Source: Acidimicrobiia bacterium (GTDB taxonomy: Bacteria; Actinomycetota; Acidimicrobiia; Spongiisociales; JAHEDJ01). Taken from it: a DNA stretch of 64,000 nucleotides. Of the stretch, positions 37,792-40,763 are shown in pieces. Position numbers and translations under genes: made by a program. The notes beneath the pieces were generated by a model that was given only the letters and a program-made list of their open reading frames with translations, was not told the DNA's origin and did not search any database. Location: the NCBI GenBank assembly GCA_035471805.1, contig DATIPS010000061.1, positions 1-64,000 on the forward strand. Reading direction: 5' to 3'. Position 1 is the first letter of the stretch. Every line of letters begins with the position of its first letter.

Positions 37792-37840
37792 TCGGCACGG
37801 TCCGAGATTCTGTCACGCCGGCCCGGTATCGTTCCCTGTG

Positions 37841-39418
37841 ATGAGCGAGCACACCGCACCGGAGACCAACGAGGGCAATCGCGGCACCGCCACGTCGGCT
37901 TTCGGCGTCGGCAGGCGGGAGAACCACGACGCGTCGGCCTTCTACGCCCGATTCAGCCCTCCGGAACTCTCCGAGGACGATTCCCTCGGTCCGCTGGAGT
38001 TCGGCCTGCCCGACCCGCCCTGCATTCTCGGCGACGCCAGGGACATGGCGCAGGTTCCCGACCGTTCCGTCGCTCTGGTGGTCACCTCACCCCCCTACTT
38101 CGTGGGCAAGGAGTACGAGCAAGCGGTCACGGGAGCCGGAGAGATCGGCCGGCCGCAGGTTCCGAACTCCTACGTCGAGTACCTGGCGATGCTGCGTGAT
38201 GTCTTTGCCGAGTGCAAGAGAACGCTCGAACCCGGCGGTCGAATCGCGGTCAACGTCGCCAACCTCGGCCGCAAGCCGTACAGGAGCCTGTCTGCCGATG
38301 TGATCCGGATCCTCCAGGACGACCTGGGCTTGCTGTTGAGGGGTGAGATCATCTGGCAGAAGGCGGAAGGAGCATCCGGGTCCGTCGCCTGGGGTTCGTT
38401 CAACAAGGCCACCAACCCGGTGCTGCGGGATGTGACCGAGCGTGTGATCGTGGCTTCCAAAGGGCGTTTCGACCGGGCCCGGTCGCGTCAACAGCGCGAA
38501 AAGGACGGCTATCCGTACGAGAACACCATGCCGGTCGACGAGTTCATGGAGGCCACCCTCGACGTGTGGCGCATCGACGCCGAGAGCGCTCGCCGGGTGC
38601 AGCATCCGGCCCCTTTTCCCGTGGAGTTGCCGCGGCGCCTGATCGAGCTCTACACGTTCGAGAACGACCTGATCCTCGATCCGTTCCTCGGGTCCGGCAC
38701 AACTCTCGTAGCCGCGGCGCGCACCGGACGGCGCGGCGTCGGATACGACCTCGACCCCGACTACATCGAAACCGCCAAGGCACGCTATCGGGCCGAGAAG
38801 AAGCGCTACAGGCGTTATGAGGAGCAAGAGGACGCCCATCAGGAGCGACTGGCGCTCGACCTTCCCCCCGAGTTCACTCCCGAGGAACGCGCCGACCACT
38901 TCCAGCGTCGGGCGAGCCGTGAAGGCAAGAAGGCCCAGGACCTGGCCAGGCAGGTGCTCGAACAGGCGGGCTTCGAGGTCATCGACGAGGCCTACAAACT
39001 GCCCAAGTCGGGCGTTCATTTCAACTTCCGGGTCGTGGACGGGAAGGGTGATCGCGAGTTCCTGGTCGACGTTTCCGGGGCGTTCACCACGGCCCGACCG
39101 GGTTTGCTGCGCACAGACACCCTCTGGAAGACCCTCGGCCGTGCCCACGTCCTCAAGTCGCTCGACGAGGAGGCCCGGCTGCTGATCGTGACCTCGAACC
39201 TGCCGAGGCCCGGCAGCGACGGGGACAAGGCGCTGCATGCCGTCGGGCCCGGGAACGTGTGGGACGCCGTCGAAATGTTCGACGGTGAAGGCGTCGGCCG
39301 GCTCGAACAGTACGCGCAGGGTCACGCCGAGCAGCTGCCAGGATTCTGGACGGCCGAAGAGCTGGCCGCCCGCCGGGACGAACAGCTCGCCCGGTACTAC
39401 GACGCCGAAGACGAATGA
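37841..39418 (+). CDS. site-specific DNA methyltransferase (beta class) with C-terminal extra domain
   Basis: 525 aa. The catalytic motif IV SPPY lies at residues 83-86 (VVTSPPYFVGKEY) and motif I DPFLGSGTT at 280-288, an order typical of beta-class N6-adenine or N4-cytosine methyltransferases. Residues of about 355-485 form a separate domain (LARQVLEQAGFEVIDEAYKL, then FNFRVVDGKGDREFLVDVSG, KTLGRAHVLKS, LLIVTSNLPRPG) whose helix-strand-strand order recalls restriction-endonuclease folds, but with VDVSG where D-x-E-x-K would be. ATG 37841 fits; the stop overlaps the next start by four bases. Confidence 0.88.
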   Translation: MSEHTAPETNEGNRGTATSAFGVGRRENHDASAFYARFSPPELSEDDSLGPLEFGLPDPPCILGDARDMAQVPDRSVALVVTSPPYFVGKEYEQAVTGAGEIGRPQVPNSYVEYLAMLRDVFAECKRTLEPGGRIAVNVANLGRKPYRSLSADVIRILQDDLGLLLRGEIIWQKAEGASGSVAWGSFNKATNPVLRDVTERVIVASKGRFDRARSRQQREKDGYPYENTMPVDEFMEATLDVWRIDAESARRVQHPAPFPVELPRRLIELYTFENDLILDPFLGSGTTLVAAARTGRRGVGYDLDPDYIETAKARYRAEKKRYRRYEEQEDAHQERLALDLPPEFTPEERADHFQRRASREGKKAQDLARQVLEQAGFEVIDEAYKLPKSGVHFNFRVVDGKGDREFLVDVSGAFTTARPGLLRTDTLWKTLGRAHVLKSLDEEARLLIVTSNLPRPGSDGDKALHAVGPGNVWDAVEMFDGEGVGRLEQYAQGHAEQLPGFWTAEELAARRDEQLARYYDAEDE

Positions 39419-39735
39419 ACGGGGTTGCCTACGCGGTCGTGCGCTTCGACCCTCCGGCGGTCTTCCTTGCCGAGGACATCGACGTGCTCCAGCGCCTGCT
39501 GGCTCTGGAGCTGGTGGCAGATACCGACCCCGCCGAACTGTCGGAGGAGGGTGCGGGCGAGCTACGTCGGGCGTTGCTCGATGAACGCTGGGGTGACGCG
39601 GTGGTCACCTGGATGGACCTGTCCGGGGTGGCCGTCGACGTCTACACCTTCCTTCCGGTCTACGGGCGCGGTGAGCTGCCCGGTGAGCTGATCGGAGCAC
39701 AGCTCCAGTTCAAGCGCCTGTTCCGGGACGCCTGA
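39415..39735 (+). CDS. small protein of unknown function in methyltransferase operon
   Basis: 106 aa, acidic, no signal or membrane segment. Helical in the middle (IDVLQRLLALELVADTDPAE then LSEEGAGELRRALLDERWGD), with a strand-rich end. Starts inside the methyltransferase stop (ATGA) and is followed two bases later by the next gene, so the three are translated as one unit. Could be a specificity, bridging or regulatory subunit. No domain recognised. Confidence 0.7.
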   Translation: MNGVAYAVVRFDPPAVFLAEDIDVLQRLLALELVADTDPAELSEEGAGELRRALLDERWGDAVVTWMDLSGVAVDVYTFLPVYGRGELPGELIGAQLQFKRLFRDA

Positions 39736-39737
39736 TC

Positions 39738-40763
39738 GTGCCGGCCCTCCGCACCGAGATCACCGAGATCGTCACCGGGCTCGGCATGTTCGGCTATCCG
39801 AATCTCGGTCACGCGATCGGGATGCGGCCGCCGGCGTTCGAGAACGTCGAAGGAGATGTCTACGACCGTCTGGCGTCTGCATACCAGTCCGGGTTGCACC
39901 GCGATCTGTTCGACACGGCATGGCGCAACGGCGTCCGGTTCGCTGCCGCCAATGAGGGGTTGCGCGGCCGGCCGCCGTGGATCGTCGAGTGGAAGGGCGC
40001 CCACCGCCCGCCCGGGTACGAGGAGATCCCGGCCGACCTGCGCGTCGACCATGTTTACCTCGTTTCCTGCAAGTACGGCTCGAACATCCTCACGAACTCG
40101 TCGCCCACCGGCCTGTTCGGCACCGAGAGCGGCGAAGACGACTGGTTCGCGACGGTTGCCCCCTCCGCCTACCAGCGACTGTACGACGAGTGCCGGCGCC
40201 TCGTTCCCGACCCTTCGCTGCCGGCCCTGGCAACCGGTCTGACCAAGTCGCACCGGCTCGTGCTCAAGAGAACCCTGCCGCGCAACCTGGCCGGCAACGC
40301 CAAAGGGGCATACAGGGAGTTCGCCACCGCGGCGGCGAGTGGTTCCTCCGCACGCTGGCAGGAGAGCCTCGGCACGAAGCTTCTGCGAGAACAGATGGTC
40401 TGGCGGCTGCTCCGACTCCAATCCGCTCCCTATTTCGTACTCGGAGAGTCGGCGGACGGCCACGCGCTCGCCTATCGCGTCCAGACCCCGTGGGACCTGC
40501 GTGCGTCCCACGAGTTCCTCTCGTTCCGGCAATGGGGTGAAGCCGACCGCGGTCAACCGATCGTGAGCTGGGAGGCCATCTACCTCGACCGGCGGACCGG
40601 TGCGGAATCCCCGATCGCCGGACACATCGAGGTCCGCTGGAGTCACGGAAAGTTCGCCCAGGCACCGGAAGCCAAGGTGTACCTCGATACTCCGCACCAT
40701 GCGGTGCCCGCCTACCTCCCCCTGGAGGGTCGGGCGGGAGGCGAGCTATCGCTGTTCGACTGA
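39738..40763 (+). CDS. unknown protein with PD-(D/E)xK-like motif, possible restriction partner
   Basis: 341 aa, soluble, GTG start two bases after the previous stop. Residues 82-112 hold WIVEWKGAHRP (E84-x-K86) followed by VDHVYLVSCKYGSNIL (D104 and C111-K112), a layout compatible with a degenerate PD-(D/E)xK nuclease core. The C-terminus contains SGHIEVRWSHGKF-like text (AGHIEVRWSHGKFAQAPEAK). No named family recognised. Its position at the end of a methyltransferase operon suggests restriction or another DNA-marking function, but this is inference. Confidence 0.65.
   Translation: MPALRTEITEIVTGLGMFGYPNLGHAIGMRPPAFENVEGDVYDRLASAYQSGLHRDLFDTAWRNGVRFAAANEGLRGRPPWIVEWKGAHRPPGYEEIPADLRVDHVYLVSCKYGSNILTNSSPTGLFGTESGEDDWFATVAPSAYQRLYDECRRLVPDPSLPALATGLTKSHRLVLKRTLPRNLAGNAKGAYREFATAAASGSSARWQESLGTKLLREQMVWRLLRLQSAPYFVLGESADGHALAYRVQTPWDLRASHEFLSFRQWGEADRGQPIVSWEAIYLDRRTGAESPIAGHIEVRWSHGKFAQAPEAKVYLDTPHHAVPAYLPLEGRAGGELSLFD

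Follow-up and report, generated by a model that had tools for sequence, protein, structure and literature searches.

The window analysed here is a stretch of 64,000 nucleotides from an Acidimicrobiia bacterium (contig DATIPS010000061.1) whose genome assembly, G000, is 2.85 Mb and 97% complete. Three genes on the forward strand form a unit within the window, and the features of this unit are as follows.

37841..39418, + strand: methyltransferase gene, 525 aa; a beta-class DNA methyltransferase by profile and motifs, apparently near-core in the order
38816..39415, + strand: C-terminal domain of the methyltransferase, residues 326-525; predicted PD-(D/E)xK-like fold, with D410-V-S412 at the ExK position
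39415..39735, + strand: S106, a 106-aa putative accessory protein encoded between the methyltransferase and R341
39738..40763, + strand: R341, 341 aa with a GTG start; candidate restriction nuclease of an uncharacterised family
37798..40763, + strand: moved unit, homologous to a segment of genome G053 (locus L003) that has unrelated flanks

The methyltransferase gene and S106 share the four bases ATGA at their junction, and S106 is separated from R341 by a 2-base gap. The open reading frames and junctions therefore agree with the initial annotation, which had described a three-gene unit joined by a 4-base overlap and then a 2-base gap. The flanking genes are an MMPL exporter, TetR, Zn_protease and CorA, as identified with Pfam. 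The BREX and DISARM partners PglZ, BrxC and DrmA/B/C are absent among the three proteins and the Pfam-scanned flanking proteins, and identity with either system was rejected on this basis; no such arrangement had been recognised initially. The unit was also said to be without mobile-element traces. No mobile-element genes were seen among the neighbours scanned, yet the unit has changed its genomic setting, the moved segment being bounded by the three genes.

The methyltransferase and its C-terminal domain

The window methyltransferase matches Pfam N6_N4_Mtase (E 2.3e-40) and PADLOC MTase_II (E 5.9e-81), and its TSPPY motif (residues 82-86) lies upstream of DPFLGSGTT, the order of motifs seen in the beta class. 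The Pfam match and the motif order uphold the earlier beta-class assignment, and profiles and motifs together indicate that the protein is the product of a DNA methyltransferase gene of the Type II kind. From the TSPPY motif it is probably of the N4-cytosine type. Among solved structures, TTHA0409 (PDB 2zie; E 4e-35, residues 62-320) is closest to the methyltransferase domain; at 297 aa it is without the C-terminal nuclease-like domain that the window protein has.

This domain of 200 residues was modelled with a pLDDT of 90.8 and a layout of H-EEE-H-E-H-E. Its six best PDB fold matches in Foldseek are BstEII, SfsA, the R2 endonuclease, BsoBI, Bax1 and FokI, with BspD6I also among the matches; the probabilities for BstEII and BsoBI are 0.98 and 0.99, respectively, and the E-values are only moderate at 5e-3 to 5e-2. 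The model has the PD-(D/E)xK core fold and its top matches are mostly nucleases, so the extra domain of endonuclease-like layout noted from the sequence is found in the predicted structure. The fold is held in common with BstEII, BsoBI and other PD-(D/E)xK enzymes, but here the TM-scores are low (0.32-0.48), the domain is fused to a methyltransferase and the ExK lysine is replaced. The aligned homologues have D-x-S/T/A/C at the ExK position, and the lysine of a catalytic D/E-x-K is missing there from all of them. One of R419, R424 or K430 may be a migrated catalytic residue. The domain is probably non-catalytic, and as a degenerate PD-(D/E)xK domain it would probably serve DNA binding or dimerisation. 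Many methyltransferases from R341-free genomes possess the domain and those at the R341-positive loci L087-L089 are without it, and it should therefore be seen as belonging to the methyltransferase and not to the unit containing R341.

R341 and S106

Comparison of 52 R341 homologues shows conservation of E84 (50/52), D104 (51/52), C111 (48/52) and K112 (52/52), all of which had been picked out from the single sequence. K86, picked out with them, is variable, being kept in 42/52 homologues, and E84-x-K86 was for this reason rejected as an active-site element. The initial annotation missed D100, which is invariant among the 52, and a second conserved centre, E298..R300-W-S-H303-G...P310-E311-A-K313, in which E298 is present in 51/52. 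The conserved set consists of R78, P80, E84, D100, D104, K112, E298-R300-S302-H303-G304 and P310-E311-x-K313. Judging from this conservation, the invariant D100, K112, E311 and K313 could form a metal site together with E298.

Structure prediction, one of the checks proposed with the initial annotation, gave a confident model of R341 (pLDDT 92.8) with a beta-rich C-terminal region after a helical and hairpin part. This model has no fold match in the PDB (Foldseek; best E 0.03, TM<0.2) and does not show the alpha-beta-beta-beta-alpha-beta core of known PD-(D/E)xK members, so that a recognisable fold of this type, as had been suggested for R341, was not found. A divergent PD-(D/E)xK core may still be present, since Foldseek can miss small cores. 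Among the viral structures of BFVD, the R341 fold matches A0A8D9C8Y9 (E 1.2e-6) and A0A1J0F9H5 (E 4e-5) with a TM of about 0.43 in Foldseek; both are uncharacterised viral proteins, 517 and 571 aa long. Sequence searches with R341 and with S106 against Pfam, NCBIfam, PHROGs and PDB sequences gave nothing useful. No match was found in plasmids for R341, S106 or the methyltransferase C-terminal domain, or in phages for R341.

The link of R341 to restriction comes from the PADLOC REase_II model PDLC03456 and from a viral occurrence of the R341 motif. PDLC03456 is matched by 47/52 R341 homologues (best E 2.3e-5), over a span of only ~32 C-terminal residues, and the window R341 itself matches weakly (E 0.012). 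A genome search with this model gave no matches, and 14 controls were equally unmatched. Considered as a linked endonuclease, R341 has the linkage, and its identity as a nuclease is suggested by the weak PDLC03456 match and the acidic and lysine residues, with no fold match. On the viral contig IMGVR_UViG_3300000553_003694, a fragment with the R341 motif matches PDLC03456 (E 0.0012) and is positioned immediately upstream of an m5C methyltransferase. The motif also adjoins an unrelated class of methyltransferase, and no other single observation speaks as strongly for R341 acting in restriction. The stretch taken from this contig (L253, 88-1680) carries the C-terminal fragment with the motif, EVRWSHGKFCGNPESKLYKY, and a second m5C methyltransferase is found nearby on the opposite strand. 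In this virus-like contig, the fragment and its methyltransferase have the look of a related restriction unit.

S106 was found in 22/138 genomes of the order, R341 being present in 22/22 of these (Fisher p 4e-21, without correction for shared ancestry), and is located only between the methyltransferase and R341. Five of the order genomes with strong R341 matches are without S106.

Distribution, linkage and loss

Matches to the methyltransferase at E<=1e-60 are present in 118/138 genomes of the order, including 75 of the 78 good genomes, and at E<=1e-40 in 312/395 class genomes sampled. These matches group at about 65-70% and 50-60% identity, the grouping being by identity. By sequence, the methyltransferase appears to be near-core in the order, with strict orthology across the identity groups only presumed. 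The distribution of R341 is patchy. Homologues were found in 29/138 order genomes, 27 of them strong and two set aside as matches near E 3e-4, and in roughly one in five of the class genomes sampled (77/395, 74 strong); a phylum sample of 396 genomes added only G518 and a fragment in G538. Among the 78 good order genomes, about 16 have R341. Most order genomes therefore have a solitary methyltransferase with no linked R341, whereas in the window genome the two are linked.

The reverse association is close to complete. A methyltransferase at E<=1e-40 is present in 71/74 class genomes with strong R341, and the three in which it was not matched are incomplete (G004 56%, G010 68% and G070 76%); in G010 and G070 R341 adjoins a fragment of a methyltransferase that lies at the edge of the contig. 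Complete genomes with a solitary R341 encode the methyltransferase elsewhere. The candidate nuclease R341 is thus hardly ever kept where the methyltransferase is missing, as is expected of a Type II system.

R341 has a same-strand methyltransferase <=500 bp away at 53/67 loci, upstream at 50 and downstream at 3, the 67 loci not being independent events since they include same-genome duplicates via two collections (e.g. L003/G053) and related species. One locus, L090, is counted among the 53 only on the strength of a fragment of the C-terminal domain; the methyltransferase itself is 2.8 kb away. About 11-13 of the 67 loci have no adjoining methyltransferase; two of these are near contig ends and one (L083) is a broken copy. 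R341 and methyltransferase distances are correlated (Mantel r 0.56, 0/999 permutations). Conservation of the neighbourhood, another of the proposed checks, is thus seen in the linkage of the two genes. The initial annotation was to be given up if the folds were unrelated to nucleases and linkage was absent as well; linkage is strong, therefore this combination does not occur. By eye, the solitary R341 of L061 has a Fpg/Nei DNA glycosylase-like protein ~170 bp upstream, and those of L048, L084 and L085, in several genomes, are near CarD-like genes.

G053 (L003) is assigned to a different family of the order. It is homologous to the window, at 77% on the nucleotide level, over positions 37798-40763 and no further. 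The flanks in G053 are unrelated to those of the window, which are common to three congeners. Since the homology is confined to the unit and the flanks differ, the three genes have moved together.

Loss of R341 and S106 can be seen between related genomes. The flanks in G125 and G126 are 82-83% identical, with 885 nt between them in G125, containing S106 and a truncated R341, and 33 nt in G126, which has neither S106 nor R341. Comparison of G086 with G088 and G089 shows R341/S106 replaced by ~1.1 kb of unrelated sequence. The methyltransferase is intact in both comparisons. Broken or frameshifted copies of R341 are present at L070 (G233), L080 (G320), L083 (G343) and L099 (G125). These are consistent with frequent loss; assembly error could also explain them. 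A search for the target site through palindrome avoidance in 20 R341-positive and 20 R341-negative genomes, at 20 kb each, gave no difference surviving ~80 tests. CTAG occurs at ~0.4 of expectation in the class genomes sampled, with or without R341 (L213-L252, 40 stretches of 20 kb).

A restriction-modification reading of the unit

The unit is probably a restriction-modification module of Type II-like character, in which R341 is the nuclease and S106 an accessory. This is the best-supported reading, and the likeness to restriction-modification rests on the genetics of the unit, with nuclease activity and a shared target being putative. The methyltransferase would mark a specific site in host DNA, probably as N4-methylcytosine, and R341 would be a sequence-specific endonuclease cutting the same site when unmarked. 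S106 would be a small protein required by, or controlling, R341. In the lineage the methyltransferase would have become near-core, with R341 and S106 gained and lost around it, and most likely this add-on cuts unmarked foreign DNA. Against this reading count the short and, for the window R341, weak REase_II match, the lack of family, sequence and fold matches for R341 in Pfam, NCBIfam and the PDB, the loci at which R341 has no adjoining methyltransferase, and the absence of a palindrome specifically avoided in R341-positive genomes.

The arrangement is like Type II restriction-modification in that methyltransferase and candidate nuclease are separate, adjacent genes that are transferred together, in that the nuclease is lost earlier than the methyltransferase, and in the weak sequence similarity to a single PADLOC REase_II model. 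It is unlike it in that the R341 family and predicted fold match no solved structure, in the third gene, the R341-dependent S106, and in a methyltransferase that appears near-core and ends in a degenerate nuclease-like domain. Retention across a lineage, mostly free of a nuclease, is a feature of orphan methyltransferases such as CcrM and the CTAG methyltransferases of Halobacteria, the latter being conserved orphans alongside patchy restriction-modification genes (PMC6471742). Here, however, the conserved methyltransferase is recurrently beside a linked candidate nuclease, and its conservation is across 55-70% identity groups of presumed orthologues. No methylome giving a usable motif was found in the literature; in BS4, the only Acidimicrobiia genome covered by PMC6329791, neither a methylated motif nor a methyltransferase was detected.

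Other functions for R341 and S106 are less probable. The two could be accessory factors of the methyltransferase without nuclease function, acting for example as DNA-binding partners in its specificity or as partners in its activity, for epigenetic regulation in some lineages. The tight coupling of R341 to the methyltransferase and their correlated divergence would be expected of such partners, as would the absence of a recognised nuclease fold and of site avoidance specific to R341 genomes, and a near-core, mostly R341-free methyltransferase is suited to a regulatory enzyme. A partner specific to this methyltransferase would not be expected to match REase_II in nearly all homologues or to have its motif beside an unrelated m5C methyltransferase, and copies of R341 standing alone at a distance from the methyltransferase fit a subunit less well; this role is considered unlikely. 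It is very doubtful that the nuclease is instead the C-terminal domain, in a fused restriction-modification protein with R341 and S106 for recognition or control. Such a protein would account for the complete alpha-beta-beta-beta-alpha-beta layout of the domain and for BstEII, BsoBI, FokI and BspD6I among its best fold matches, but not for the loss of the ExK lysine or for the distribution of the domain with respect to R341, and the Foldseek E-values are modest. The least probable reading, for which there is very little room, makes R341 a Type IV-like nuclease that depends on modification, or another kind of defence effector, travelling with the methyltransferase by chance. Its beta-rich C-terminal region after a helical and hairpin part and the solitary copies would suit this, but the methyltransferase is obligate in R341 genomes and cutting of methylated sites by R341 would be self-harm.

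The restriction-modification reading retains much of the initial annotation. The methyltransferase-linked unit, the endonuclease-like fold of the C-terminal domain and the link of R341 to restriction stand, while E84-x-K86 and a PD-(D/E)xK fold for R341 do not. The two alternatives that had been offered, a modification system or an orphan methyltransferase, both apply, the former as a restriction-modification-like unit in the window genome and the latter as the solitary methyltransferase in most of the order. A more specific history can be put forward only tentatively, and is itself rather doubtful. R341 would be a nuclease whose fold is new among solved structures, strictly dependent on S106 in one sub-group, that has repeatedly docked onto a near-core methyltransferase with a remnant fused nuclease, one nuclease having replaced another.

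If the restriction-modification reading is correct, the unit is a worked example of interconversion between a conserved methyltransferase and a restriction-modification pair, each stage (three-gene, decaying and lost) being represented among related genomes. It would add a nuclease family whose predicted fold has no solved relative. Expressing a single gene would then be enough to test directly the epigenetic mark in a large class of actinobacteria that is mostly uncultured.
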